A DNA stretch of 50,189 nt from Muribaculaceae bacterium (GTDB lineage Bacteria > Bacteroidota > Bacteroidia > Bacteroidales > Muribaculaceae), in NCBI GenBank assembly GCA_023667285.1, contig JAMPAK010000001.1:866401-916589 (forward strand). The letters run 5' to 3'. The translations under genes and the position numbers were made by a program. The notes beneath the pieces are model-generated. The model ran no database searches and was not told the DNA's origin. It saw nothing but the letters and a program-made list of their open reading frames with translations. Positions 12,769 through 39,148 of this stretch are shown here, piece by piece (position 1 is the first letter of the stretch; every line of letters starts with the position of its first letter).

Positions 12769-15552
12769 ATGAAAAAGAACATAAGACAGGTGTTGGCCTC
12801 CGTGATTATGGCCACATCCGCACTCTCCTCACTCGCTGTGCCAGCTAAGCCCGGACTGATCGAGATGACCCGCCCTGACGGCACCACAATCAATGTGCGC
12901 ATCCACGGCGACGAATTCCACCACTTCCTCACCACTGAGGATGGCTACTATATTGTCGAGGACAAGGGGGACTTCTATTATGCCGATGTCAACCCCCTCG
13001 GCGTCACTGTCAACTCCGGCATCCGCGCCGCAGCCCCCGCCGCCCGCACCGCCGAGGCGCGCGCCTATCTCGCCGGCGTCGACATGGACCAGGTCCGCGC
13101 CACAATGACCCGCACCGCCGAGGCGCGCCTCAGCGCCATGGCCCAGACCCAGCAGATCGCCGCCCCGGCCTTCGCATCGTCTGAGGCATCAGGCCCCCAG
13201 CGCGGCCCCGGCCTCTTCCCCGGCTCGCACTTCCCCGCCACAGGCAAGCAGAAAGGCCTCGTGATTCTCGTGGAGTATACCGACGTCAAGATGTCCGTCT
13301 CCGACCCTCACGACTATTTCACCCGCATGCTCAATGAGGAGGGCTTCAGCTCATATGGAGGCACCGGCTCCGCCAAGGACTTCTTCCTCGAGGTCTCGGG
13401 CGGCAAGTTTGACCCCGACTTCGACGTGTTCGGCCCCGTCACTCTTCCCCAGAACCAGGCATACTACGGCGGCAACAACTATTCAGGCGATGACCAGCGT
13501 CCGGCCCACATGGTGCGCGACGCATGCGACCTCCTCGACGACCAGATCAACTTTAAGGACTATGACCGCGACGGCGACGGCATTGTCGATAACGTCTTTG
13601 TCTTCTATGCAGGACGCGGCGAGGCATCAGGCGGCTCGGCCAACACAGTCTGGCCCCACGCATGGAATGTGGAATATGGCATCGGCTACCAGCCCACCTA
13701 CGACGGCGTTAAGGTGTCGCGCTATGCCTGCTCAAACGAGTGGGAGGGGAGCCGCCCCGACGGCGTCGGCACCTTTGTCCATGAGTTCTCACACGTCATG
13801 GGCCTCCCCGACCTCTATGCCACCAGCTATACCTCCTCCTTCACCCCCGGCTCATGGTCGTGCATGGACTACGGCCCTTACAACAACGGCGGCTGCACAC
13901 CCCCGCTCTATGGCGCTTTCGAGCGCTATGCCCTCGGGTGGCTCGAGCCTAAGGCAATCAGTGAGCCGGAGATGGTCACACTCCCTGCCATCGGCGAGAA
14001 TGTGGCCGCCATCATCAAGACATCCAAGACCAACGAATTCTTCCTCCTGGAGAACCGTCAGAAAGTCTCATGGGACAAGTATATTCCAGGCCACGGCATG
14101 CTCGTGTGGCACATAGACTACAACTCAAGCGTCTGGAATCAGAATGTTGTCAACAACACCCCCTCTCATCAGTATGTAGATATCGAGGAGGCCGACGGCA
14201 CACAGACAGAGGGCTCGCGCGCCGGCGATGCATTCCCCGGCACAGCCCGCAAGACCTCATTTACCGACACCACAAACCCGTCCATGAAGACATGGGCAGG
14301 GCAGTCACTCAACAAGCCCCTCACTGACATCACCGAGACCGACGGCATCATCACCTTCGCTGTCAGCGGCGGCACACCAGTCGACGTTGTTGTCCCTGCC
14401 GGACTTGAGACAATCACCTTCGACGAGAACAGTTTCACAGCCTCATGGGAGACTGTCCCCGGTCTCTCCTATATAATATCGGTGTTCACACGCCCCGGAG
14501 CCGAGACTCAGGTGAGTGACCGTGTCTATGTGGAGGGCTATGAAAACCTCAACATCGGCAAGGTGTCATCCTATCGTGTCACCGGGCTTCAGCCTGAGGT
14601 GACCTACTACTACACTCTCCGCTCCTCAGCCGGCTCCAAGGTGTCCGATGAGTCGGCCGAGGTTAAGGTCACCACGGGGAAGACTCCATTCAACACGCTG
14701 GTTGTAAATGCTCTCGATCCGACGAATGTGGGCGATACATCATTCACCGCTGTCTGGGAGCCTGTAGCCGGCGCCACAGACTATATCCTCAATGTCTTCA
14801 CCAAGTCACCCCGTGGCTCCATGACAGATGTCTGCAACTTCAACAAGGGTGCTGACAACCTCCCCGACGGTTGGGAGGCAAACACCACCGCCTCTTACGC
14901 CATGGACAACTATGTAGGTAAGGCATCACCCTCGCTGCGCTTCAGCCAGTCAGGCGAATATATAGCGTCGGCCACCTATGAGGCCGATGTCCTTGAGGTC
15001 TCTTTCTGGCATCGCGGCTCCAACACAGCCGCCGGCGATGAGATTCTCCTCCGTGTCAGCGTCAACGGCCATTGGCAGACCGTCAAGTCCATCCCGGTAG
15101 TCACCGACATGGGCGGCTCAGTCACAACAGTGACCCTCAATGTGGCCGGTGCAAACAGGGCGCGCATCGAGTACCGTCCTCAAGGCAACAAAGGCTCTGT
15201 GGCCATAGACGATATCGCCGTCACTTATGGCATTCAGCCTGAGCGAAAAGCCGTGCAGGGCTACAAGGATCTCCGCACCGGGAACGTCACATCTTATGAG
15301 GTCAGAGGTCTTGACCCCTCAACTCTCTACTACTACACTGTCCAGGCAACCGATGGCACCACCAACTCCATCTCTTCCAACGAGATATCCGTTGAGACTA
15401 CCTTTGACTCCGCCATCAACAGCATTGAGGCCATCGACGGCGACGCCCCGGTTGAATATTTCAACCTTCAGGGAATCCGCGTTGACAATCCCACCACCGG
15501 CATCTACATCCGCCGCCAAGGAAGCAAAGTGACCAAAGTGCAGGTGAGATAA
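12769..15552 (+). CDS. Secreted M6 family metalloprotease with FN3 domains and sorting-like tail
   Basis: A 927-residue secreted zinc protease related to immune inhibitor A. It has a signal peptide (1-24) and an N-terminal prodomain-like region. The catalytic domain contains HEFSHVMGLPD at 338-348, matching HExxHxxGxxD, and a calcium-type loop DYDRDGDGIVD at about 264-274. Then come a fibronectin type III-like module, a cleaved-adhesin/MAM-like beta module (about 680-825) and another FN3 piece. The last 30 residues (EYFNLQGIRV...GIYIRRQG...VTKVQVR) resemble a type IX secretion tail and nearly match the tail of the 22459-24153 protein. Codons strongly prefer C in third position. Substrate unknown. 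Confidence 0.88.
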   Translation: MKKNIRQVLASVIMATSALSSLAVPAKPGLIEMTRPDGTTINVRIHGDEFHHFLTTEDGYYIVEDKGDFYYADVNPLGVTVNSGIRAAAPAARTAEARAYLAGVDMDQVRATMTRTAEARLSAMAQTQQIAAPAFASSEASGPQRGPGLFPGSHFPATGKQKGLVILVEYTDVKMSVSDPHDYFTRMLNEEGFSSYGGTGSAKDFFLEVSGGKFDPDFDVFGPVTLPQNQAYYGGNNYSGDDQRPAHMVRDACDLLDDQINFKDYDRDGDGIVDNVFVFYAGRGEASGGSANTVWPHAWNVEYGIGYQPTYDGVKVSRYACSNEWEGSRPDGVGTFVHEFSHVMGLPDLYATSYTSSFTPGSWSCMDYGPYNNGGCTPPLYGAFERYALGWLEPKAISEPEMVTLPAIGENVAAIIKTSKTNEFFLLENRQKVSWDKYIPGHGMLVWHIDYNSSVWNQNVVNNTPSHQYVDIEEADGTQTEGSRAGDAFPGTARKTSFTDTTNPSMKTWAGQSLNKPLTDITETDGIITFAVSGGTPVDVVVPAGLETITFDENSFTASWETVPGLSYIISVFTRPGAETQVSDRVYVEGYENLNIGKVSSYRVTGLQPEVTYYYTLRSSAGSKVSDESAEVKVTTGKTPFNTLVVNALDPTNVGDTSFTAVWEPVAGATDYILNVFTKSPRGSMTDVCNFNKGADNLPDGWEANTTASYAMDNYVGKASPSLRFSQSGEYIASATYEADVLEVSFWHRGSNTAAGDEILLRVSVNGHWQTVKSIPVVTDMGGSVTTVTLNVAGANRARIEYRPQGNKGSVAIDDIAVTYGIQPERKAVQGYKDLRTGNVTSYEVRGLDPSTLYYYTVQATDGTTNSISSNEISVETTFDSAINSIEAIDGDAPVEYFNLQGIRVDNPTTGIYIRRQGSKVTKVQVR

Positions 15553-15592
15553 TCGCCCCCACCACCGGCGCCCGAAGAGCGCCGAATTACAC

Positions 15593-15638
15593 GTAGCCCC
15601 GGCCATGGAGGCTGCCACCGGCGCCGACATGTCCGGGG
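15593..15638 (+). repeat. Palindromic intergenic repeat, core copy 1 (forward)
   Basis: The core reads GTAGCCCCGGCCATG at its left end and ACATGTCCGGGG at its right end. The two ends can pair (CCCCGGcCATG / CATGtCCGGGG) around a GCC-rich centre. It is flanked by GAATTAC on both sides. It lies 40 bases after the M6 gene's stop and may serve as its 3' hairpin. The same core recurs in both orientations at 20.7-21.1, 21.8-22.1 and 24.3-24.5 kb. Confidence 0.75.
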
Positions 15639-15719
15639 TGACGAATTACGGATTGAACAATCATTTATATTATCTTTTTTGTTAAACCGTGAAATTTCAA
15701 TAAAAAAACAATTAAAAAG

Positions 15720-15751
15720 TTTGCACAATTCACAGGGATGGCTTAACTTTG
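15720..15751 (+). promoter_or_regulatory. Promoter of the 1505-residue adhesin-like gene
   Basis: TTTG (15720-15723), a 20-base spacer and TAACTTTG (15744-15751). Transcription would start near 15757, about 330 bases before the start codon. Confidence 0.75.
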
Positions 15752-15756
15752 CATTG

Positions 15757-16088
15757 CCGTTTATTCAATGCGGCGTATTGTGTCTTGTTGTATGAGGCTC
15801 GATAGATTCATCATTAACCAACCGTTAAACCCTTAAACCACATTAACAATAGCCTGTAACTCCTCTCTTTGACCTCAGAAGGTCGCGCCCTGCCAACACC
15901 CTTGGCCCGCGTGGCCGATGTGTGTACCTTCACACATCACACAGTGCCAAACCAACATTCATCCACGGCACACAAACCATAGAAACAAACAAAAACAAAT
16001 AAATAATTTAAGTTTCGGCGGCCCGGTCGTTAACGGTTTCGGCACCGGGTTAGCATCTAATCTTTTGAAACCATTTCTTCAAATTTTT
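15757..16088 (+). promoter_or_regulatory. Long 5' leader of the adhesin-like gene
   Basis: About 330 untranslated bases are predicted between promoter and ATG. They contain small hairpins GACCT-CAGA-AGGTC (15871-15884), GGCC-CGCGT-GGCC (15904-15916) and the perfect GATGTGTG-TACCTT-CACACATC (15917-15938), then an A-rich tract. No known riboswitch motif is recognised. An open frame from 15918 runs into the gene in frame, but its product has no signal peptide at its start and is low-complexity, so I treat it as leader. Confidence 0.45.
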
Positions 16089-19000
16089 ATGAGAACAGTT
16101 CTTACACGAATTCTCTCATCGGCACTCATTGCTTCGGTCGCCGCCACTGCGTGGGCCGACAATAATTTGCCGAAGATAGTCTTTGAAGGTCCCAATCCTT
16201 ACAGGATTGAGAACGCGGGACTTAAGAATGCACCTGTGAGAGTGGGACGTCGCGGTTCCATCGGTTTCGCCTCTCGCGACATGTCTTTGCTTTCCCAGCG
16301 TGCCGCTATGGCCAAGGTGCCTTTTAGGGCAGCTGCAAGCATGCCTGAGATTCTTGGCTCAGTCATCGCTTCAGATGCATGGACCACAACTGCAAATGTA
16401 GGCCTCTACAAGGTTCCCACAGCAAAAGACCAGACTTTTACTGAGGTAATCAAGGGTCTTGACGCTTCCTATGGTGGTGTCCTCGTTGAGGACACATATT
16501 GGGCTGTAGGCACAAAGGCAACAGAAGGACGTAATGTATTTTGGATTACCGGATATGATATCAACTCCGGTGAAGAGGTTGCTAGTTACGCTGCTGAGGC
16601 ATATCCGCAGATTGCCATTGGCGGTATGACATATGATGCTACTACCGGTACTGTGTACGCTCTCAGTCCTGCAGATGAGGATGCATTTGATAGCGATGCG
16701 CTCTCGCTCGTGACGCTCAGTTTCGGCCCTACATCAACTACTTACAATGTGATTGCCAGTGTCGCTGACCAGTATGCATGTATTGCTGCGGCTGCAGATG
16801 GCACACTTTATGGTGTTGTTGAGAATGATGCCAAGACATCAACTCTCGTTAAGATTGACAAGACCACAGGTGTTGCAACTCCTGCTGTAACTGACTCGAA
16901 GACTGGCAAGGCTGTCACCACAGGCATCAAGCCCTGGGATGCAGCATCTGCAATCATCGATCCCACCACCGGCCGTATGTTCTGGACTGTATACGACGCT
17001 TGGTATAAGGGCTATATCGCTGAAATCGACCTTAAGAAAGGTACTGCTACAAAACTTTATGACTTCCCCGGCAATGAGTGGGTTATGGGTCTTGCTATCA
17101 AGAAAGAACTTGATCCCGGAGTCCCCGGCATTGGTACAGATCTCGCTCTGACATATGATAAGGGTTCACTCTCCGGCAAGCTCACTTTCATGGCTCCCGC
17201 CAAGACTCTTGATGATAAGGCCGGTACAGGCGCTCTCACATATGTAGTTGAGTGCAATGGCCAGGTTATCTCAACAGGTCCCACAGTCTATGGCGCTAAG
17301 GTTATCGTGGACTACAACGTTCCTGCTGCTGACAACTACACATTTATTGTATACTTCACCAACGCTAAGGGTCAGGGTCCCAAGGCCACTATCTCCAAGT
17401 ATATTGGCCAGGGTATCCCCTCTGATACTGAGTATGTAACCCTTACTTATGTAGGTGGCCGTATGACTGTTGAGTGGGCTGCTGTAAAGACCAGCGCGGA
17501 TGCAGGCTATCTCGATCCCTCAAAGGTGACATATACCGTTACTCCTTATTATAATGGTGTAAAGGATGCTTCAAAGGCTGTCACAACCTCTGAACTTATG
17601 TGGGCAGAGCGTATCACCGAACCTCAGGGCACCTATGAGACTTATGCTTATGGTGTAAGCGCTACTTACAACAACATCACCTCAAGAGAGGTTATGTCTA
17701 ACACTGTTGCTCTTGGCTACTACAACATTCCTTATACAAATACTCTTGCTACAGCCGCTGACTTTGATAAGATGACCGTCATCAATAGCAACGAGGATAA
17801 AAATGCTTGGTCTTATGATTCTGCATCGAAGGCAGCCAAGATTATGTACAACACTTCAAAGGATATGGATGACTGGATGATCACTCCTCCCGTCCGTCTT
17901 GAGAAGGGTAAGACATACAAACTCTCATTCAAAACTTTCTGCGGTCTTGCAAGTTATCCCGAACGTATTGAGGTTAAGGTGGGTACTGCAGCAACTGCAG
18001 AGGCAATGACCTCAACGGTTGTAGCTCCTGCTGTTGTGGCAGCTGCTAGAGCAAGTAATGCCATTGAGCTTTCAGGCTATTACGAGGCAGAAGCCACAGG
18101 AGACTACTATTTTGGTTTCCATGGCATTTCGGACGCCAATTCATATTATCTCTGTGTAAACAATATTGAAATTGTAGAGGGTGAGGCTAACATTCCTGCC
18201 GCTGTCAAGAACCTTGTTGTAACTCCCGCAGTCAACGGTGACCTGAAGGTTTCTGTATCCTTCACTGCTCCCTCAACTGATTTCGGTGGCACTGCTCTCA
18301 CTGATGCAACCAAGATTACTGAAGTCAAGATTTCACGTAACGGCACGGATCTCGATCAGGCTGTTGACTTTGTTGACGGTGTCGCCACCTATACTTTCAC
18401 TGACAATGTTCCCGCTGTAGGTGAATACACTTACACTGTTTCTTGCAAGAATGTGAACGGTTGGGGTGTAGAAGAGAGCAAGACAGTATATGTCGGCATC
18501 AACTATCCCGAACCAGTGGCAGAGGTGTTCATTGAGGAACTTAGCACACCCGGTGAGATTTCAATCCACTGGCCCGCTGTGACTCAGACTATCACAGGCC
18601 AGCCCCTTGAGGCTTCAGATGTAACATATACCGTTACATATTGGGATTATGATGGTGGTACATCCACACAGACAACTTCTGAGACTGCAATCACAGTGAA
18701 GATGTGTGAACCCGATGGCCAGGCATTCGCACTCGCTCAGGTTGTGGCTAATACACAGCGTGGCAGCAGCGATGCTGTTCAGGCAGGCCCGACTCCTGTA
18801 GGTGTACCTTACACAGACTACCTCAACACATTCAGTCTTGAGGATATGAACAAGTATGCATACTATACGAACTCAACTTTTGTGTCATGGTATATTGGAA
18901 TTAATGGAGGTCCGGCAGGTGTCGATGGAGACTCAAACTATCTAACATGTAAAGCCTCTCTTGCCGGTGCCTATGGTAATTATGTCACAGGTGTCATCTC

Positions 19001-20606
19001 GCTTAAGGACATGAAGGCTCCCAAGCTCTCTTTCTATACCTATAATTTAGGTGAGGAAAACACTAACACAATTTCTGTGTGGGTAAAGACTCCTGATCAG
19101 GATCAGTTCTCAGTTCTCATGGCTGAGACCACAATTCAGGCTATCGGCGAGCAGGATATGTGGAGTCAGGTACTTCTTGATCTCTCGAAATATGCAGGCA
19201 AGGATATCCAGATTCGTCTCCAGATTACTAATAAAGCATATGTCTACACCCTCGTTGACAATCTCCAGGTGTTCTCACCTCTTGCTAACGATCTTGAGGC
19301 TAAGATTATCGCTCCTCAGTTCGTAAATGCCGGTATGGACTACAATGTCCAGGTTGAGGTGACCAGCAATGGCTACGAGACCGCTAAGGACTACACTGTA
19401 GAACTATATGCTGACGGCAAGCTCGCTGAGACCAAGGCCGGTGACGCTCTGACATATGAGAAGTCAACTGTCGTTGATTTCGAGCGTACATTCGACATCA
19501 ACGCTACAACTCCTGTTCTCTACAAGGCTGTTGTCAACTTCAAGGCTGATGAGGATCTCCTCAACAACACAACTGAAGAAGTTTCTGTAACACCTATCGT
19601 AGACGGTTCACCCGTTGTCACTACTCTCGATGCCAACTCAACTCCTGCAGGTGTTGAACTGACATGGACAGAGCCCGACACCAAGAACGCTGCTCCCTGG
19701 CAGATCACTGAGGACTTCGAAGATGCTGCTGAGTATGCTACTGTTTACGGTGACTGGACATTCCAGAGCCTTGACGACTCTCGCAACTATACACTTGAGG
19801 AAACAGCATTCCCCACTGCTCCCAATGCATATCTGGTAGGTGATGCTAATACCCTGTATGTTCCAGGTAAGTCAGGGGACAAGTATCTTGTAGCTCTTCC
19901 AGCAGTTAAGGGACCGAACGATGACTGGGCAATCTCACCCGAGCTCTCAGGCAAGCGTCAGATTGTTTCGTTCTACGTTCGCAGTTATTCCGTTGGTCAT
20001 CCTTCATTTGAGTTCTACTATTCAACTAATGACAACAAGCCTGAGTCATTCAAACTTGTTGAGGCTATCTCAAATGTTTCTACCGCATGGTCTCAGTATG
20101 CTTACATCATCCCCGAGGGTGCTAAGTACTTCGCAATCCGTTGCACATCCAACAATGTTTGCGTATTCCTCCTCGATGACGTATCCTTCACTCCGAAGGC
20201 TATGAAGGCTGCTTACCTTGCCATCAAGGGTTACAATGTATACCGTGACGGTGTCAAGATCAACGACGCTCTCGTGACAGAGACCAAGTATCTCGACGCT
20301 ACTGCAGTTGACAAGACTCGCTACAAGTATACAGTGAACGTAGTATATGAGAAGTCAGTATCAGGTGCTTCAAACGCTGTCACCATCATGTTCAACGACA
20401 TCGATGAGATCGCAGCTGACAACCTGGCCATCAACACCGAGGACGGCGCTATCGTAGTGACCGGCGCTGAGGGCATGATGGTGACTGTAGTCGCAGTCGA
20501 CGGCAAGACTCTCTATGCTGCTGAGGGCAACGCCCGCGTATCTGTTCTCCCCGGCGTTTACGTAGTGAAGGCTGGTGAGAAGGTAGCTAAAGTTCTCGTT
20601 AAATAA
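16089..20606 (+). CDS. Large secreted cleaved-adhesin/FN3 protein with C-terminal sorting-like tail
   Basis: A 1505-residue protein beginning with a signal peptide (MRTVLTRILSSALIASVAATAWA). Residues about 70-350 have propeller-like repeats (TTGTVYAL, DGTLYGVV, TTGRMFWTV). FN3-like strands follow. Three cleaved-adhesin / choice-of-anchor-J-like modules come next, marked by DDWMITPPV, a MAM-like stretch near GNYVTGVISL, and DDWAISPEL, as in gingipain and HagA adhesin regions. A CARDB-like module lies near 1070-1170. The last 40 residues (VVAVDGKTLYA...GVYVVKAGEKVAKVLVK) resemble a type IX sorting tail. Predicted to be surface-exposed or shed; ligand unknown. T-ending codons (GCT, GTT) dominate, unlike the C-ending M6 gene upstream, which suggests high expression or a different origin. 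Confidence 0.8.
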   Translation: MRTVLTRILSSALIASVAATAWADNNLPKIVFEGPNPYRIENAGLKNAPVRVGRRGSIGFASRDMSLLSQRAAMAKVPFRAAASMPEILGSVIASDAWTTTANVGLYKVPTAKDQTFTEVIKGLDASYGGVLVEDTYWAVGTKATEGRNVFWITGYDINSGEEVASYAAEAYPQIAIGGMTYDATTGTVYALSPADEDAFDSDALSLVTLSFGPTSTTYNVIASVADQYACIAAAADGTLYGVVENDAKTSTLVKIDKTTGVATPAVTDSKTGKAVTTGIKPWDAASAIIDPTTGRMFWTVYDAWYKGYIAEIDLKKGTATKLYDFPGNEWVMGLAIKKELDPGVPGIGTDLALTYDKGSLSGKLTFMAPAKTLDDKAGTGALTYVVECNGQVISTGPTVYGAKVIVDYNVPAADNYTFIVYFTNAKGQGPKATISKYIGQGIPSDTEYVTLTYVGGRMTVEWAAVKTSADAGYLDPSKVTYTVTPYYNGVKDASKAVTTSELMWAERITEPQGTYETYAYGVSATYNNITSREVMSNTVALGYYNIPYTNTLATAADFDKMTVINSNEDKNAWSYDSASKAAKIMYNTSKDMDDWMITPPVRLEKGKTYKLSFKTFCGLASYPERIEVKVGTAATAEAMTSTVVAPAVVAAARASNAIELSGYYEAEATGDYYFGFHGISDANSYYLCVNNIEIVEGEANIPAAVKNLVVTPAVNGDLKVSVSFTAPSTDFGGTALTDATKITEVKISRNGTDLDQAVDFVDGVATYTFTDNVPAVGEYTYTVSCKNVNGWGVEESKTVYVGINYPEPVAEVFIEELSTPGEISIHWPAVTQTITGQPLEASDVTYTVTYWDYDGGTSTQTTSETAITVKMCEPDGQAFALAQVVANTQRGSSDAVQAGPTPVGVPYTDYLNTFSLEDMNKYAYYTNSTFVSWYIGINGGPAGVDGDSNYLTCKASLAGAYGNYVTGVISLKDMKAPKLSFYTYNLGEENTNTISVWVKTPDQDQFSVLMAETTIQAIGEQDMWSQVLLDLSKYAGKDIQIRLQITNKAYVYTLVDNLQVFSPLANDLEAKIIAPQFVNAGMDYNVQVEVTSNGYETAKDYTVELYADGKLAETKAGDALTYEKSTVVDFERTFDINATTPVLYKAVVNFKADEDLLNNTTEEVSVTPIVDGSPVVTTLDANSTPAGVELTWTEPDTKNAAPWQITEDFEDAAEYATVYGDWTFQSLDDSRNYTLEETAFPTAPNAYLVGDANTLYVPGKSGDKYLVALPAVKGPNDDWAISPELSGKRQIVSFYVRSYSVGHPSFEFYYSTNDNKPESFKLVEAISNVSTAWSQYAYIIPEGAKYFAIRCTSNNVCVFLLDDVSFTPKAMKAAYLAIKGYNVYRDGVKINDALVTETKYLDATAVDKTRYKYTVNVVYEKSVSGASNAVTIMFNDIDEIAADNLAINTEDGAIVVTGAEGMMVTVVAVDGKTLYAAEGNARVSVLPGVYVVKAGEKVAKVLVK

Positions 20607-20638
20607 TCCGTAAGATTAGATAACCCCGAATACACCCA

Positions 20639-20669
20639 AGCCCCGGAGGCTCCAAGCCCCCGGGGCTTA
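20639..20669 (+). terminator. Terminator of the adhesin-like gene
   Basis: AAGCCCCGG (20639-20647) pairs with CCGGGGCTT (20661-20669), followed by ATTATATA. The hairpin starts about 30 bases after the stop codon. Confidence 0.7.
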
Positions 20670-20709
20670 TTATATACCCATCACCCCCCCCTCTGACATG
20701 TCGGCCTCT

Positions 20710-20761
20710 CCCCGGCCATGTCGGCCTCTCCTGCGGAATCGGCCTACATGGCCGGGGCTAC
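20710..20761 (-). repeat. Palindromic repeat core copy 2 (reverse)
   Basis: The core in reverse orientation: CCCCGGCCATGTCGG at the left and CATGGCCGGGGCTAC at the right, with a TCTCCTGCGGAATCGG centre. The centre is longer than in copies 3 and 4 and matches the variant seen in copies 7, 8 and 9. Confidence 0.75.
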
Positions 20762-20948
20762 GTGTAAATCGGCGACCTAACGGGCGCCTTTCTGATTGGG
20801 ATGCCTATTCCCCGGACATGTCGGCGCCAGAGGCAGCCTCCATGGCCGGGGCTACGTGTAAATCGGCGACCTAACGGGCGCCTTTCTGATTGGGATGCCT
20901 ATTCCCCGGACATGTCGGCGCCAGAGGCAGCCTCCATGGCCGGGGCTA
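20761..20948. repeat. 94-bp tandem direct repeat, two copies (cores 3 and 4)
   Basis: Two near-identical 94-bp units begin at 20761 and 20855 (each CGTGTAAATCGGCGACC...). Each contains a reverse-oriented palindromic core, at 20810-20855 and 20904-20949. A third, partial unit (CGAGTAATTCGGCGACC) starts at 20949. Near identity suggests a recent duplication. Confidence 0.85.
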
Positions 20949-20969
20949 CGAGTAATTCGGCGACCTAAC

Positions 20970-21050
20970 GGGCGCCATATCGGCCTTCGGCCGCGGGATT
21001 GCTGCTAGACTACCGAGATTATGTAGTGTCCGGAGGACACTGATTTACAC
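20970..21050. repeat. GGCC-hairpin module plus AGTGTCC hairpin
   Basis: GGGCGCC, then CGGCCTTCGGCCG (a short hairpin), a diverged relative of the 52-bp unit at 22119-22302, and AGTGTCC-GGA-GGACACT leading into TGATTTACACGTAGCC. The same order recurs at 24355-24490. Confidence 0.65.
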
Positions 21051-21196
21051 GTAGCCCCGGCCATGGAGGCCGCCACCGGTGCCGACATGTCCGGGGTAAC
21101 GAATTACGAAAACCCAAAGGCGTCCGTAGGCCGCCGAATTACGATGCCGGATTGTCTCCGCGTTGAATCAATGATCATTCACTCCCGTAAATCGGG
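21051..21196 (+). repeat. Composite repeat, left copy (core 5 + TGATCA module)
   Basis: A forward core (21051-21096) is followed by GAATTACGAAAACCC and then an imperfect palindrome (21119-21196) running GGCGTCCGTAGG...GAATTACGATGCCGGAT...AATGATCATT...CGTAAATCGG. The same composite occurs after the transposase (21788-21940) and at 24491-24650, all in the same orientation. Confidence 0.75.
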
Positions 21197-21249
21197 GGTG
21201 GTAATGTGAAATTCTTTTGTTTCGTATATGGGGGATGGAATTTATTGTG

Positions 21250-21257
21250 TATCTTTG
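21250..21257 (+). promoter_or_regulatory. -7 box of the Y1 transposase gene
   Basis: TATCTTTG matches TAnnTTTG and lies 33 bases before the chosen ATG. No TTTG is found at the usual 20-base spacing, so the promoter is probably weak. Confidence 0.4.
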
Positions 21258-21290
21258 TGGTACGTGTCACGTGGATTAATTGTCTATAAT

Positions 21291-21737
21291 ATGAGCCATA
21301 TTGCCATCACATATCATATCATTTTCTCGACCTCATGTAGGAGAAACGTCATCAACATGGATCATGAGCGCGAATTGTATAAATTCATCTATGATTTTTC
21401 TAAGGATAGGGGTGTGAAGATATGGCGGATCGGTGGGATGCCTGACCATGTGCATATCCTTTGCGATATTCCGCCGCGGATTTCTGTGGCCGATTATGTT
21501 AGGTTGGCCAAAGGGGAGTCGAGTAAGTTTCTGAAGATGAATCCGAATTTTCCATATTGGGAGAGGTGGGCAGAGGGATATTGCGCCTTATCGGTAGACG
21601 CCGGGAGTCGCATGACCAGGATTAACTATATAATGAATCAGAAGCAACATCATGCGAGGTTTTCGTTTGAGGATGAGTTCAGGCGGATTTTGGAGGAGTA
21701 TGGTTTGTCTACGGATGACCCGATGATAGGTGAATGA
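21291..21737 (+). CDS. IS200/IS605-type Y1 transposase (TnpA), possible RAYT
   Basis: A 148-residue single-strand DNA transposase of the HUH family. The metal-binding HUH motif is HVH in GMPDHVHIL (about residues 51-59). The candidate catalytic tyrosine is in INYIMNQKQHH (about 114-124). The length matches IS200 TnpA (about 150). I chose the ATG at 21291 because MSHIAITYHIIFST aligns with the family's first strand. No accessory TnpB is present. The gene stands alone between two direct copies of a palindromic composite repeat and is the only transposase in the window, the arrangement expected of a REP-associated transposase. It appears intact. Whether it mobilises the repeats is inference. Confidence 0.85.
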   Translation: MSHIAITYHIIFSTSCRRNVINMDHERELYKFIYDFSKDRGVKIWRIGGMPDHVHILCDIPPRISVADYVRLAKGESSKFLKMNPNFPYWERWAEGYCALSVDAGSRMTRINYIMNQKQHHARFSFEDEFRRILEEYGLSTDDPMIGE

Positions 21738-21787
21738 GATGGGGTGCGCCGACAGGCACAATGGCGTCCGTAGGACGCCAATTACAC

Positions 21788-21940
21788 GTAGCCCCGGCCA
21801 TGGAGGTCGCCACCGGCGCCGACATGTTCGGGGAACTAATTACAAAACCCAATGGCGTCCGTAGGACGCCGAATTACGATGCTGGATGGCTACCGCGTCG
21901 AATAAATGATCATTCAATCCGTAAATCGGCGGCCTACGGA
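21788..21940 (+). repeat. Composite repeat, right copy (core 6 + TGATCA module)
   Basis: A forward core (21788-21833), an AATTACAAAACCCAA linker, then GGCGTCCGTAGGACGCCGAATTACGATGCTGG...AATGATCATT...GTAAATCGGCGGCCTACGGA. It is a direct copy of the composite at 21051-21196, on the other side of the transposase gene. The palindromic half closes well here: CCGTAGG near 21860 pairs with CCTACGG near 21933. Confidence 0.75.
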
Positions 21941-21945
21941 CTGGA

Positions 21946-22098
21946 CCCCGGACATTCTCGGCCTTTCCTGCGGATACGGCCTCCATGGCCGGGGCTACGT
22001 GTAAATCGGCGGCCTACGGACGCCTTTATTGAGGGCAACCCGGCCACCCCGGACAGTCTCGGCCTCTCCTGCGGAGGGCCTCGCATGGCCGGGGCTAC
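21946..22098 (-). repeat. Palindromic repeat cores 7 and 8 (reverse)
   Basis: Two reverse-oriented cores, 21946-21998 and 22047-22098, each running from CCCCGGACA to CATGGCCGGGGCTACGTGTAA with the TCCTGCGGA centre. They are joined by ATCGGCGGCCTACGGACGCC. Confidence 0.75.
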
Positions 22099-22118
22099 GT
22101 GTAATTCGGCGACCTAAC

Positions 22119-22302
22119 GGGCGCCAATGCGGCCTTCGGCCGCGGAATGCTGCGTATCCGAGGCTGTGTAGGGCGCCAATGCGGCCTGTGGCCGCGGAAT
22201 GCTGCGTATCTGAGGCTGTGTAGGGCGCCAATGCGGCCTTCGGCCGCGGACGGCTGCGCATCCGAGGCTGTATAGGGCGCCAATGCGGCCTGTGGCCGAG
22301 GG
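22119..22302. repeat. 52-bp tandem repeat, 3.5 copies
   Basis: Units start at 22119, 22171, 22223 and (partial) 22275. Each reads GGGCGCCAATGCGGCC, then TTC or TGT, then GGCCGCGGA...GCTGCG.ATC.GAGGCTGT.TA. Each unit has a GCGGCC-TTC/TGT-GGCCGC hairpin. Only a few positions vary, so expansion is recent. The array ends about 60 bases before the promoter of the next gene. Confidence 0.85.
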
Positions 22303-22360
22303 GTGGGGATAAAATTTGTTAAATCGTGTTAACTTATGGCATGTATTGTAAATTAATGCG

Positions 22361-22368
22361 TATATTTG
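22361..22368 (+). promoter_or_regulatory. -7 box of the Ig-like protein gene, with 5'-terminal hairpin
   Basis: TATATTTG sits within ATTAATGCGTATATTTG, which is identical over 17 bases to the promoter at 28841-28857. No good -33 match is seen. The transcript would begin near 22374 and at once form the hairpin TGGCCGT...ACGGCCA (22377-22401), followed by about 58 A/T-rich bases to the ATG. Confidence 0.55.
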
Positions 22369-22458
22369 CACTGAAATGGCCGTGGTATATTCCTACGGCC
22401 ACCTAAATCGCTAAAATAATAATAAATCACATTAAATCTAACTTCAAATTTTTCATCT

Positions 22459-24153
22459 ATGAGAAAAATTTTTACCCTGCTGGCTGCTTGTGTCGTGGCA
22501 TTCTGTGCTTCGGCTGAGGCAGTTAAAGTTAGTTGGCCACTCGACGATACAGGTGAGGGCGTCAACTACGCAGCGCCCACTGTTACAGGTGATGGGGCCG
22601 CTTCAGTAACAGCATCGAATCTTGTCATCCCTTCTAGATTCACTTACAAAGAAGGCAAAACGACTAACGGTGTGAGAGGACAGGAATTTAACCCTGTTAC
22701 GGCACTTAATAGCGGCACTTCTACTATCGGTGAAGAGTGCTGGTTTAGGTTTCCTATAAAAGTCGCTGACGGAATGAAACTTACAATAACAAAGGTTTCA
22801 TTTAAGGTCGGAAAAACTGGTACTGGTGATGCCAGTTATATAAATGCTTTTTTCCTTTATGATAGCGATAAAAAGGGAACTCTTGGTAACAAAATAGCGC
22901 TTAATAGGAATAATGAAGCTGGCGGTTGGTTTAATGATTGCTCATATACATCTTTCGAGAACTATGATGGCGTTGTTGAAGGCGACGGCGCTATTGTTCT
23001 AAACGTGTATGGGAAACTCGCTACTAGCAAGGGTTTCTGGGTGTCATCAGTTGTACTAGAGGGTACTGTTGAGGCTGCCGGCACTCCGGCTCCAATCTCT
23101 TATCCCAATCCTGTGATTGCACTTAAGATTCGTGATGCGTTCACATCTCCCGTGCTGACAAACACTGAGAATCTCCCCGTTACCTATGCTTCAAGCAACA
23201 CTTCTCTCGCTACTGTTGATGCCAATACAGGCGTTGTGACTCTCAAGGAGGGTGTACTTGGTGAGACTGTCATCTCTGCTACTTTCGCAGGCAATGATAC
23301 ATATGTCAAGACAGTTGCCGAGTGCAAGATTACAGTTGCTTCAAATGTAACTTATGTATATGCAGGCAATCCTGCTCTGAAGGTTCCCTCAACTTTCCCC
23401 TGCGATGTAATCATCGATGCAAGCTACACCACTGAGGGCACTCAGGTGCTGACAAAGAAGGGTGTGTTCCTTGATGATGACTATGTAGTGATGGAGACTG
23501 TAAATGATGGTGCCAAGCTGAACGGCTATGCTCAGACATATCTCGGCCAGACTTTCACCAAGAGCCTCCAGATGCTTGTTGATGCTGCTCCCTCTGCTTC
23601 TGCCCCCACAGGCAAGGCTCACAAGGAGACTACCGCTATCCAGGTGACTCCCAAGGCTGACCTTACTCTGGTAATCTTCGGTATGCGCAAGGTGGAGATT
23701 GACCCCAAGCTCACTGTGACTGAGGATGACCTGCCCAACAATAACCTCACAATGACTCAGTATTTCTCATTTGCTGCAAATGACAAGTATTCAGTGATGG
23801 TGATGGAGCAGGGTGCATATTCGGCTCCTCTCGACCAGAAGGTTTCGCTTGGCGCATGGGCTCTCGCTGCTGACCAGACTGTGAAGGATCCCCGCAACAA
23901 TGCTTATGTAGGTACAACTGTTGAACTGAAGAAGGATAAGGTTTACACCGTGTATGCTACTCAGACCTACAACATGAATGGTATCGGTTACATTCGTCCC
24001 GCCGGAGGTTCTGTGGCCGTTGAGACCATCGAGGTTGATGAGAATGCTCCCGTTGAGTATTACAATCTCCAGGGCATCCGTGTTGAGAATCCCGAGAACG
24101 GTATCTATATCCGTCGTCAGGGCAACAAGGTGACCAAGGTGCTCGTGAAGTAA
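22459..24153 (+). CDS. Secreted Ig-like protein with C-terminal sorting-like tail
   Basis: A 564-residue protein with a clear signal peptide (MRKIFTLLAACVVAFCASA). Residues about 22-210 form a beta-rich domain of unknown identity. About 213-295 is a bacterial Ig-like (BIG2) module, shown by LPVTYASSNTSLATVD and TGVVTL. The remainder, about 300-515, is unassigned. The last 40 residues (EYYNLQGIRVENPENG, then IYIRRQG and KVTKVLVK) almost match the M6 protease tail and fit a type IX sorting signal. Role unknown; likely exported or surface-attached. Its gene lies between two blocks of palindromic repeats and has its own promoter and a strong terminator. Confidence 0.8.
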   Translation: MRKIFTLLAACVVAFCASAEAVKVSWPLDDTGEGVNYAAPTVTGDGAASVTASNLVIPSRFTYKEGKTTNGVRGQEFNPVTALNSGTSTIGEECWFRFPIKVADGMKLTITKVSFKVGKTGTGDASYINAFFLYDSDKKGTLGNKIALNRNNEAGGWFNDCSYTSFENYDGVVEGDGAIVLNVYGKLATSKGFWVSSVVLEGTVEAAGTPAPISYPNPVIALKIRDAFTSPVLTNTENLPVTYASSNTSLATVDANTGVVTLKEGVLGETVISATFAGNDTYVKTVAECKITVASNVTYVYAGNPALKVPSTFPCDVIIDASYTTEGTQVLTKKGVFLDDDYVVMETVNDGAKLNGYAQTYLGQTFTKSLQMLVDAAPSASAPTGKAHKETTAIQVTPKADLTLVIFGMRKVEIDPKLTVTEDDLPNNNLTMTQYFSFAANDKYSVMVMEQGAYSAPLDQKVSLGAWALAADQTVKDPRNNAYVGTTVELKKDKVYTVYATQTYNMNGIGYIRPAGGSVAVETIEVDENAPVEYYNLQGIRVENPENGIYIRRQGNKVTKVLVK

Positions 24154-24174
24154 TCGGAATCCACACCAAATCAT

Positions 24175-24214
24175 AACAATCCCCTGCGCCGAATGGTGCG
24201 GGGGATTGTTTTTT
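24175..24214 (+). terminator. Terminator of the Ig-like protein gene
   Basis: AACAATCCCC...GGGGATTGTT with an inner GCGCC/GGTGC pairing, followed by TTTT. A strong intrinsic terminator 21 bases after the stop. Confidence 0.9.
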
Positions 24215-24283
24215 CCGGGGGGGATGCCTTGCGGAATGGTAAATCGGCGGCCTCCGGGCGCCTTTCTTGGGGCATCCGGTCCA

Positions 24284-24334
24284 CCCCGGACATGTCGGCC
24301 GCTCCTGCGGAGGGCCTCGCATGGCCGGGGCTAC
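24284..24334 (-). repeat. Palindromic repeat core copy 9 (reverse)
   Basis: CCCCGGACATGTCGG...TCCTGCGGAGGGCC...CATGGCCGGGGCTAC, the same variant as core 8, preceded by an ATCGGCGGCCTCCGGGCGCC flank. Confidence 0.75.
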
Positions 24335-24354
24335 GAGTAAATCGGCGTCCGATG

Positions 24355-24490
24355 GACGCCAATGCGGCCTGCGGCCGCGGGGTTGGCCGCGTATCCGAGG
24401 CTGTGTAGGGACGCCATTGCGGCCTTCGGCCGCGGGGTGGCTTCTAGTCTGCCGATACGATGGTAGTGTCCGGAGGACACTGATTTATTC
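24355..24490. repeat. GGCC-hairpin units plus AGTGTCC hairpin
   Basis: Two degenerate relatives of the 52-bp unit (GCGGCCTGCGGCCGC, then GCGGCCTTCGGCCGC) followed by TAGTGTCC-GGA-GGACACTGATTTA. The order matches 20970-21050. Confidence 0.65.
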
Positions 24491-24650
24491 GTAGCCCCGG
24501 TCATGCGAGATCCCGTCAGGGTCGAGAATGTCCGGGGAACGGTGGCCGTCCCCCGGGTTGGCGTCCGTAGGCCGCCGAATTACGATGCCGGATGGCCTTC
24601 ACGGGGAATATATGATCATTCAATTCGTAAATCGGCGTCCGATGGACGCG
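24491..24650 (+). repeat. Composite repeat, third copy (core 10 + TGATCA module)
   Basis: A diverged forward core (24491-24537) is followed by GGCGTCCGTAGGCCGCCGAATTACGATGCCGG...ATGATCATT...CGTAAATCGGCGTCC. This is the third copy of the composite that flanks the transposase, about 2.7 kb from it. Confidence 0.7.
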
Positions 24651-24675
24651 ATTGCTGTTTGTAACGGGTCGGAAG

Positions 24676-24818
24676 TTATTAACATTCATAGGGGGTATGC
24701 CTTGGAAGTTATTAACATTGTAATTGGTTGTTGGTGAGGTTTGTTATGCCTAGGCGAATAGAGTTATTAACATTGTGTTGATATTGATGAGTGGGGATGT
24801 TGATAATTGTGTTGATAA
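24676..24818. other. Cluster of five TGTTRATAA nonamers (DnaA-box-like)
   Basis: TTATTAACA occurs at 24676, 24709 and 24764 on the plus strand, and TGTTGATAA at 24798 and 24810. Read on one strand all five fit TGTTRATAA, two bases (or one) from the classical DnaA box TGTGGATAA. The stretch is AT-rich, has no gene, and lies between the repeat block and tRNA-Met. It could be a replication-related or regulator-binding cluster. dnaA is not in the window. Confidence 0.4.
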
Positions 24819-24844
24819 GTTTTTGAAAAGATTTGGTGGTTTTG

Positions 24845-24876
24845 TTTGGCTGTTTGGTGAATTGTTGCTAACTTTG
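24845..24876 (+). promoter_or_regulatory. Promoter of tRNA-Met
   Basis: TTTG (24845-24848), a 20-base spacer and TAACTTTG (24869-24876). The start would be near 24882, nine bases before the mature tRNA. Confidence 0.8.
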
Positions 24877-24890
24877 CAGCGCAAAATGAT

Positions 24891-24967
24891 GGCGAGATAG
24901 CTCAGTTGGTTAGAGCGTCGGATTCATAACCCGGAGGTCCCGAGTTCAATTCTCGGTCTCGCTACCA
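24891..24967 (+). tRNA. tRNA-Met (CAT anticodon)
   Basis: A 77-nt cloverleaf with CCA encoded. Acceptor GGCGAGA pairs with TCTCGCT (first pair G-U), the D arm is GCTCAGTTGGTTAGAGC, the anticodon loop is TTCATAA (CAT) and the T arm is CCGAG-TTCAATT-CTCGG. It lacks the C1-A72 mismatch and GGG/CCC anticodon stem of initiator tRNA, so it is an elongator Met. A CAT-anticodon tRNA-Ile read through lysidine cannot be fully excluded. Confidence 0.9.
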
Positions 24968-24989
24968 AGATTTAAGATTCCACATCAGT

Positions 24990-25028
24990 CCCCTCTTATC
25001 CGTGATGGACGAGAGGGGTCGCTTTTTT
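24990..25028 (+). terminator. Terminator of tRNA-Met
   Basis: CCCCTCT (24990-24996) pairs with AGAGGGG (25012-25018), followed by TCGCTTTTTT. Confidence 0.8.
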
Positions 25029-25040
25029 GTTGGGCGATGT

Positions 25041-25072
25041 TTTGGACGGGTGGAAATTGTTTTGTAACTTTG
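25041..25072 (+). promoter_or_regulatory. Promoter of the DUF4301 gene
   Basis: TTTG (25041-25044), a 20-base spacer and TAACTTTG (25065-25072). The leader is about 22 nt. Confidence 0.8.
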
Positions 25073-25100
25073 GCCAAGAATCAATCAATTCCTTAAATAA

Positions 25101-38255: not shown

Positions 38256-39148
38256 TTTCCAATAAGGGCAAAAATCAGGAATGTTATAGAGAAAAGCAGC
38301 ATTAGCATGGCCGTCATGCCGAGCAGCGGATTGAGTTGGCGTCCATGGCGCGTCACTAGCATGCGGTAGAGGCACATGTGAAGCACAAGATAGACACATG
38401 GGGCTATCCATCCCCATTTGACGGCCGATATCCAGGCCGGGATGGTGAGAATTACTGCAAGAAATCCATTGGTGACGTAGAGACTCGCGGTGGCCGGAAG
38501 CCCTATCCTGACGGTGAGGGTACGTTTTCCGACTGTCATGTCGTCCTCGCGGTCGCGATAGTTGTTGACAAGGAGTACATTAGCTCCCATCAACCCGATG
38601 GCCACTGAGACGGCGAGTATATACCACGACCATGTGCCGCCTGAGAGAAGATATGTGAGTGAGACGGGTGCTATACCGAAAAAGCATACCACAGCAACCT
38701 CCCCGAGGCCATGACGGCTGAGAGGCCATGGGCCTGTGCTGTAAGCCATGGCTCCGAGGGCAATGGCCACGCCGGCGCCAAACATCCACGGGGAGCCGTA
38801 GAGCCACACGGTGAGACATCCAACCAGACAGGCCAAGCCGAGGGTAAGGAATGTGGCTCTCTTCATGGCCGGGGGTGTGATATCTCCCTCGGTGACACCT
38901 CTGCGTGGACCATCACGCCCCGCTTTGTCGAGACCGTCGCGGAAGTCGTAATACTCGTTTGCGAAGTTTGAGGCCACCTGGGCCAGGACAGCGAAGGCCA
39001 GACACAACAGAAGTGCGCCCACAGAGACTGACTCTGTGCACACGCTCAGTCCGGCCGCGAAGACAACTCCTGCCACTGAGACAGGGAGGGTGCGGAGGCG
39101 CATTGCCTCAATCCAGCTCCTGATGGCAGAGGGGTGTCCGGCTGTCAT
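38252..39148 (-). CDS. menA: 1,4-dihydroxy-2-naphthoate polyprenyltransferase
   Basis: A 298-residue UbiA-family membrane enzyme that prenylates DHNA in menaquinone synthesis. It has about eight to nine membrane helices. The prenyl-diphosphate/Mg motif is N64-x3-D68-x3-G72 (NEYYDFRDG). A second Asp motif is NNYRDREDD. The ATG at 39148 lies two bases after the HIT stop; a GTG at 39154 overlapping that stop is the alternative. Confidence 0.92.
   Translation of the reverse strand: MTAGHPSAIRSWIEAMRLRTLPVSVAGVVFAAGLSVCTESVSVGALLLCLAFAVLAQVASNFANEYYDFRDGLDKAGRDGPRRGVTEGDITPPAMKRATFLTLGLACLVGCLTVWLYGSPWMFGAGVAIALGAMAYSTGPWPLSRHGLGEVAVVCFFGIAPVSLTYLLSGGTWSWYILAVSVAIGLMGANVLLVNNYRDREDDMTVGKRTLTVRIGLPATASLYVTNGFLAVILTIPAWISAVKWGWIAPCVYLVLHMCLYRMLVTRHGRQLNPLLGMTAMLMLLFSITFLIFALIGK

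Follow-up and report, generated by a model that had tools for sequence, protein, structure and literature searches.

Does the lone transposase gene at this locus act as the partner of the palindromic repeats that surround it and, if so, to which enzyme lineage does it belong? The window (the whole stretch of 50,189 nucleotides analysed here, from a Muribaculaceae bacterium) holds one such gene, tnpA, with repeats on both sides. The best reading of the evidence is a REPtron of a previously unrecognised kind that derives from an IS200-derived lineage. The features of the window are listed below; bit scores refer to R1, a covariance model described further on, and the palindromes without a score come from the sequence, a half-site search, and a genome-wide pattern search.

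15567..15661, + strand: unit in the gap 3' of an M6-peptidase-like gene, palindrome 15597-15638 (34.6 bits)
20710..20761, - strand: GTAG-tagged palindrome 20710-20757
20771..20882, - strand: three-hairpin unit, palindrome 20810-20851 (54.7 bits)
20904..20949, - strand: GTAG-tagged palindrome 20904-20945
21025..21135, + strand: three-hairpin unit 5' of tnpA and pointing at it (69.1 bits); hp1 21025-21041, GTAG 21051-21054, palindrome 21055-21096, hp2 21119-21135 (one mismatch)
21250..21257, + strand: TATCTTTG, which resembles the Bacteroidetes -7 promoter box
21291..21737, + strand: tnpA, intact Y1 transposase gene of the TnpA-Y1 subclass 1.2 type by its motifs, 148 aa, with DHVH and YIMNQKQHH
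21763..21870, + strand: three-hairpin unit directly 3' of tnpA, in tnpA's own direction and not in the usual inverted one, palindrome 21792-21833 (64.1 bits)
21946..21998, - strand: GTAG-tagged palindrome 21946-21994, pointing back at tnpA
22008..22125, - strand: three-hairpin unit pointing back at tnpA, palindrome 22047-22094 (44.9 bits)
24246..24360, - strand: three-hairpin unit, palindrome 24284-24330 (45.5 bits)
24465..24576, + strand: three-hairpin unit, palindrome 24495-24537 (52.9 bits)

The window contains ten whole imperfect palindromes of 42-49 bp in both orientations. A sequence-only reading of the same DNA had rightly counted at least ten in both orientations, had put their length too high at 46-53 bp, and lacked the GTAG that stands at the 5' foot of all ten. 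Its statement that the repeats are confined to four gaps is correct within the window, where four intergenic gaps (15.6, 20.7-21.1, 21.8-22.1, and 24.3-24.5 kb) hold all ten palindromes and the half-site search found only isolated half-sites in the rest, for example at 38864. It does not extend to the genome, where the tagged palindrome pattern occurs at 29 places with at most one mismatch, against none for the reversed pattern. The ten window places are among these 29 and have zero mismatches; one other place (L029) is without the palindrome. Half-site CCCCGGNCATG matched the window 29 times with at most one mismatch, compared with 5.3 expected, and none of 100 shuffles gave 29 or more. The hairpins also fold better than shuffled sequences (z -2.1 to -4.9). 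A chance origin of the palindromes was rejected on the half-site shuffles, the reversed controls, and their absence from genus-mates. A known RNA family was likewise rejected, since the only Rfam match in 15400-25100 was a tRNA.

The amplification of this repeat is specific to the genome. Exact GTARCCCCGGYCATG occurs at 27 places in it, in none of 26 genus-mates, and as a single copy in seven of 270 other family genomes; with the reversed control, two family genomes had a match, one apiece. In the count of intergenic and coding copies, 24 of the 26 exact places examined (all but the one on contig C1) are not overlapped by an ORF of at least 150 aa. The REPtron arrangement, in which GT[AG]G-tagged palindromes flank the gene and are dispersed at intergenic sites, is therefore found here. 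The units of the window are mostly tandem or mixed in arrangement, and a tandem, BIME-like array of six repeats lies near C11:842 kb. A recurring stretch with TGATCATTCA between small hairpins joins window units at 21120-21200, 21870-21960, and 24555-24640. The neighbouring genes at 12769-15549, 16092-20603, and 22459-24150 encode large proteins, one with an M6 peptidase domain, one with domain matches below cut-off only, and one without a Pfam match; by eye, the C-termini of the three resemble a common sorting domain.

A 226-aa orphan gene is also multi-copy in this genome. It has no Pfam or NCBIfam match and occurs as 25 pieces, many of them cut by 100-N gaps: C11:1208731-1209408 (L141), C11:533082-533756 (L142), C19:7456-8133 (L143), and 22 more. 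Codon differences between L141 and L142 are mostly synonymous (21 against 6). A repeat unit lies directly upstream of the gene at eight sites, and two of the three whole copies have none. The gene is present in 13 of 297 family genomes, some of them without TnpA. It constitutes a mobile gene family.

What kind of enzyme is TnpA? The earlier description of an intact, lone IS200/IS605-type TnpA with HVH and YIMNQ was borne out, as the window tnpA is the only PF01797 match in the genome. The protein passed the IS200/IS605 model NF033573 (75.3 bits, cut-off 55) and failed the RAYT model NF047646 (28.4 bits, cut-off 80). Its signature is Y---Q--HH, and the YIMNQ stretch does not fit the RAYT motif Y---NP. 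On this score and signature, a plain RAYT identity was rejected. The traits of subclass 1.2 (DH[IV]H, Y---Q--HH, and a length of ~148 aa) are all present, and by motif, length, and taxon the protein would be filed under that subclass, although its W motif reads WA and not the WQ of subclass 1.2; the W itself is invariant in 15 of 15 rows. The prediction of its structure gave a confident fold (pLDDT 89.5). A profile of 15 relatives matched eight distinct solved sequences, all of them transposases. The nearest chains were of IS200 type, one of them named ISHp608, and RayT was not named among the eight.

In a tree of 49 proteins, for which 28 of 89 family proteins (the window's included) and 14 of 27 phylum proteins were taken, a branch (92/86; 94% of bootstraps) sets apart 42 such TnpA proteins, and a different branch (98/85) sets apart six IS200/IS605 transposases. 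E. coli RayT sits on a very long branch and its place is unsure. The separation from ordinary multi-copy IS200 that had been predicted thus appeared in the tree and in the single copy of the gene. An ordinary multi-copy IS200 element was rejected on these two grounds and because no TnpB domain (PF07282) scored over cut-off in the genome, where one match lay below it. Relatives are common. TnpA homologues were found in 150 of 297 family genomes and, by a profile search, in 164 of 345 sampled Bacteroidota genomes. Scanning public genome contigs yielded 80 loci, nearly all with titles that name Bacteroidales, Bacteroidetes, or a family or genus within them; two read Clostridia and Lachnospiraceae. 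Of 110 loci, 89 distinct proteins were retained, and 87 of them carry Y---Q--HH; the other two are truncated.

The tnpA loci of these relatives reveal the anatomy of the unit. In a strict test for a tagged hairpin (TA[AG]CC and at least 8 of 10 pairs within 300 nt of the gene), 49 of 88 upstream flanks scored, as did 41 of 89 downstream flanks in the inverted sense and 31 of 88 loci on both sides. Controls gave 9 and 13 in the other orientation, 0.7 and 0.4 in shuffles, and 16 in 2206 distant pieces. In other words, roughly half of the flanks fail the strict test. The unit reads in the order of a hairpin with a GNA loop (hp1), a TA[AG] tag, a mismatched palindrome, and a small hairpin (hp2). 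The first hairpin is present in 71 of 88 units, in 64 of those 7-12 nt before the tag, and hp2 in 59, in 54 of those 17-27 nt past the palindrome. They occur together in 56 of 88 units compared with 4.8% of 1180 random positions. In 86 units (L133 and L136 dropped) the first non-pair falls 6-10 bp from the palindrome foot in 73, and the base preceding TA[AG] is G in 51%, A in 26%, and T in 23%; TA[AG]CC was imposed by the search itself and is no result of this count.

A looser test, in which hp1, a gap of 5-13 nt, TA[AG], and a second hairpin were sought and the palindrome was not required, was passed by 51 of 86 upstream flanks, 60 of 89 downstream flanks, and 44 of 86 loci on both sides. The corresponding figures were 2 and 3 for shuffles and 15 and 22 for the opposite orientation; of 3188 distant pieces, 88 passed. 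Among the hp1 triloops of this test, 200 of 288 were GNA, compared with 45 of 590 in other triloop hairpins, some flanks contributing several overlapping calls. GNA triloops are unusually stable in DNA. The hp1 loop is strand-specific, and therefore the strand that reads hp1, tag, and palindrome is likely the working strand of the unit.

The looser test was also applied to 30 phylum loci (29 from the Bacteroidota profile search and one Persicobacter plasmid), in 27 of which the gene was located. It was passed by 20 of 27 upstream flanks, 18 of 26 downstream flanks, and 16 of 26 loci on both sides, but this set is weaker evidence because distant pieces (12 of 168, 7.1%) and the opposite orientation (12 and 12) score high. 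Visual inspection of several phylum loci, such as L264, showed no palindrome following the tag. The complete series of hp1, tag, palindrome, and hp2 flanks the Persicobacter gene on either side. Inward-pointing units thus bracket tnpA in many Bacteroidales and, less clearly, in other Bacteroidota.

The orientation rule was examined with the covariance model. For alignment, 37 of 88 units were retained in which both small hairpins were found and the main hairpin was at most 45 nt; a 32-unit alignment combined 26 of those with six others chosen by eye, and R1 was built on 16 units picked for aligning well. In these 16, both partners vary in 17 of 23 pairs, and covariation scores 0.53 compared with 0.18 when shuffled, for rows that had been chosen for having hairpins. 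RNAalifold paired the main hairpin of a mixed alignment (A3) only partly because two groups of rows were offset by one column. R1 gave 229 matches in the window and 85 tnpA loci (the 89 less L065, L075, and L077), including the loci from which it was built. Among the best 150 of the 229, matches within 250 nt pointed at the gene upstream in 47 of 84 loci and downstream in 35 of 85. Within the same 150, inward matches stood on both sides at 28 loci, a wrong-way match was present at eight, and only ten matches in 400 kb lay more than 1 kb from the gene; hp2 ended a median of 47 nt before the start codon and, downstream, began a median of 10 nt past the stop. The upstream unit of the window conforms to the inward rule; downstream, the same-way unit at 21763-21870 precedes the inverted ones.

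The palindrome arms are specific to each locus and vary with the enzyme. Between the two copies at one locus, arm identity was 0.88, compared with 0.52 between loci (31 loci; 0 of 10000 permutations). Furthermore, arm identity tracks TnpA identity over 46 loci (Mantel r 0.51, 0 of 5000), the trend being absent among those 46 where TnpA identity is below 60%. L133, L136, L097, L111, and L074 were dropped from the arm comparison.

Do units and TnpA occur together? With at most 13 candidates scored per genome and stricter filters, R1 matched 108 of 297 family genomes. Any TnpA homologue and a unit were both present in 78 genomes, TnpA only in 72, a unit only in 30, and neither in 117 (odds ratio 4.2, p 2e-8, a statistic that ignores shared ancestry). 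For at least five units the numbers were 44, 106, 9, and 138 (odds ratio 6.4). The expectation that repeats would be missing where TnpA is missing held for the genome's own repeat, which is absent or single in genomes without this TnpA, and failed for units in general, which are many in some genomes without a Y1 gene. Nine of the 297 genomes have at least five units and no PF01797 match, four of them at least 95% complete; thus, units can persist without a Y1 gene. Loss of the gene can account for this, and a second mover would look alike.

Among the genomes compared, the closest relative (G104; 86% identity over one gene) lacks TnpA, lacks the window's own type of repeat, and gave no R1 match. 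The three genes that surround the block stand in the same order in G104, and where the window has 1.66 kb of tnpA and repeats, G104 has 178 bp bounded by a terminator-like hairpin and a promoter region that both genomes share. A large part of these 178 bp fails to align; therefore, the two sister species differ by presence and absence of the block, and this is not a clean empty site. The comparison yielded no empty site with exact ends, and loss of the block in G104 is possible. The L002 site is divided between two contigs in that genome.

Units also occur as pairs. A survey of 55 places, picked among the matches listed to include neighbours on one contig, gave 20 close R1 pairs, of which 15 were convergent, four divergent, and one tandem. 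Among these same listed matches, 12 of the convergent pairs were spaced 28-112 bp without tnpA and three enclose tnpA. The convergent dimers look like the tnpA element minus tnpA and are REPIN-like; two inverted REPs with a short spacer, in dispersed positions, are found in relatives. A search for empty sites by comparing flanks among the dimers found none. Three convergent dimers (L223, L224, and L225) are themselves flanked by inverted repeats, those of L225 about 40 bp long and near perfect, and look like insertions into the middle of pre-existing palindromes. A larger element contains the dimers in three species:

L235-L253 (G142, G201) and L215-L221 (G170): ~330-bp MITE-like element with a convergent dimer

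This element has the ends GAGGCTGTGTCAAAA/TTTTGACACAGCCTC and is found at many unrelated sites. Its having ends of its own means that another transposase may have copied the dimers there. The tnpA genes of G142, G201, and G170 have homologous flanks, which fits a gene that stays put.

How might such a system work? By analogy with IS608, ISDra2, and the RAYTs (available part of PMC8266576), TnpA would recognise the three-hairpin unit on single-stranded DNA. The TA[AG] tag at the palindrome foot (GTAG in the window) may act as a guide for a nearby cleavage site, and through strand transfer, units and convergent dimers would then move into intergenic sites or be amplified there. Binding, guidance, cleavage, and mobilisation by TnpA are thus proposed by analogy.

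We consider it probable that the locus is a REPtron whose enzyme comes from TnpA-Y1 subclass 1.2, a lineage related to IS200 and distinct from the RAYTs, and whose single and probably domesticated TnpA acts on the three-hairpin unit. This reading is favoured because of the signature, length, and HMM scores of TnpA, because inward tagged hairpins and R1 matches bracket tnpA and are rare at a distance, and because hp1 and hp2 co-occur, GNA triloops are in excess, and arms agree within a locus. The 27 copies in this genome against none in the 26 genus-mates, the co-occurrence, the convergent dimers, and the absence from G104 argue for it as well. Counted against it are the 72 genomes with a homologue and no R1 match, the extra same-way downstream unit of the window, the weaker phylum set, and the lack of a clean empty site. 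An unlikely alternative is that a different transposon (MITE hitchhiking) or general recombination spread the units, tnpA being a passenger or past inhabitant of those palindromic loci. The shared ends of the ~330-bp copies at unrelated sites, the units of the nine genomes without any Y1 gene, and the own-genome units that adjoin the multi-copy orphan gene all suit it, and the first two argue against a strict dependence on TnpA. However, the GAGGCTGTGTCAAAA/TTTTGACACAGCCTC ends were not seen around the dimers shown from G031, G002, G281, G117, G230, and G034, the arms follow TnpA identity and match across tnpA, and the units stand on either side of tnpA at short, constant distances and in a single orientation.

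Terminators or RNA-stability elements that serve the host and have nothing to do with TnpA would explain intergenic sites and folding better than shuffles, and a host role may exist on top of mobility. As the whole explanation this is very improbable: Rfam offered only the tRNA in 15400-25100, the hp1 loops are strand-specific, and the layout recurs around tnpA with different sequences in a fixed orientation. The least credible account is an ordinary IS200/IS605 insertion sequence whose end hairpins were repeated by happenstance. The passed IS200 model and the IS200-type solved chains, ISHp608 included, speak for it, but the gene is single while 27 repeats stand without it, the composite flanks are inverted in many relatives, the protein branches apart from the six IS200 proteins, and the genome has no TnpB domain over cut-off.

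If the REPtron reading is right, what does it mean? The like layout and different hairpin sequences of the relatives suggest that hairpin-spreading partnerships came from more than one enzyme lineage. It is tentatively proposed, as a nearly even call, that the REP/transposase partnership arose at least twice, in the RAYTs (class 2) and in an IS200-related subclass 1.2 domesticated across Bacteroidota, with a three-hairpin GNA-triloop substrate, a TA[AG] guide, and convergent dimers as the mobile unit. If true, REP systems would be built from two Y1 branches. This would offer an independent example with which to ask why genomes retain enzymes of this sort, as well as hundreds of natural enzyme/substrate pairs on which guide-directed cleavage of single-stranded DNA could be studied. 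The homologues are common, and the 2018 Y1 classification, in the accessible part of PMC6006769, lists subclass 1.2 without REPs or IS features.

The same part of PMC6006769 describes subclass 1.2 as mostly from Cyanobacteria and Bacteroidetes, low in copy, and generally without IS200 ends, with REP given as 'no'. In its account, subclass 2.4 (Cyanobacteria, Bacteroidetes, and others) has REPs, single or double-foot, and subclass 2.6 (Bacteroidetes) has atypical structures. The accessible part of PMC3733652 reports CGTC repeats in Bacteroidetes and GTAG repeats in Proteobacteria, Cyanobacteria, Chloroflexi, and the PVC group. The mere presence of REPs in Bacteroidetes is already known from these two sources, and the suggestion that a Bacteroidales version would be notable has to be narrowed accordingly: with subclasses 2.4 and 2.6 on record, it is not the first report of a Bacteroidetes REP. 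A literature search, with most subscription journals outside its scope, found no paper describing REPs for subclass 1.2, and the parts of the literature examined report no binding, cutting, or movement by a subclass 1.2 protein.

How does the locus compare with known systems? It resembles the REPtrons of RAYT/TnpAREP (class 2; E. coli RayT) in its lone Y1 transposase amid dispersed intergenic GTAG-tagged palindromes and, as in RAYT REPtrons and REPINs, each enzyme has its own repeat family, inverted dimers form, and repeats occur elsewhere in the genome without the gene. The earlier comparison with REP/BIME elements thus stands as far as the layout is REPtron-like (a lone Y1 gene, genome-specific tagged palindromes, a BIME-like array, and REPIN-like dimers in relatives) and falls on the enzyme, which is class 1 (Y---Q--HH) and under the RAYT cut-off. 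Unlike in RAYT REPtrons, the unit has three hairpins with GNA triloops on hp1, and the tag in relatives is [G/A/T]TA[A/G] instead of GT[AG]G. Bacteroidetes REPtrons of subclasses 2.4 and 2.6 share the phylum and the repeats beside a Y1 gene, whereas their enzymes are class 2 with Y---NP (accessible part of PMC6006769). Closest to the window TnpA by HMM and solved-chain profile are IS200/IS605 elements (IS608, ISDra2), which likewise have a hairpin with an adjacent guide-like tag; the locus differs from them in its single copy, inverted composite flanks, dispersed gene-less repeats, and a genome with no TnpB over cut-off. Finally, TnpA is like subclass 1.2 of Quentin et al. 2018 (PMC6006769, accessible part) in DH[IV]H, Y---Q--HH, 148 aa, low copy, and occurrence in Bacteroidetes, and it departs from that subclass as listed there (REP 'no', WQ) in the WA of the window protein and in the tagged repeats that flank its gene.
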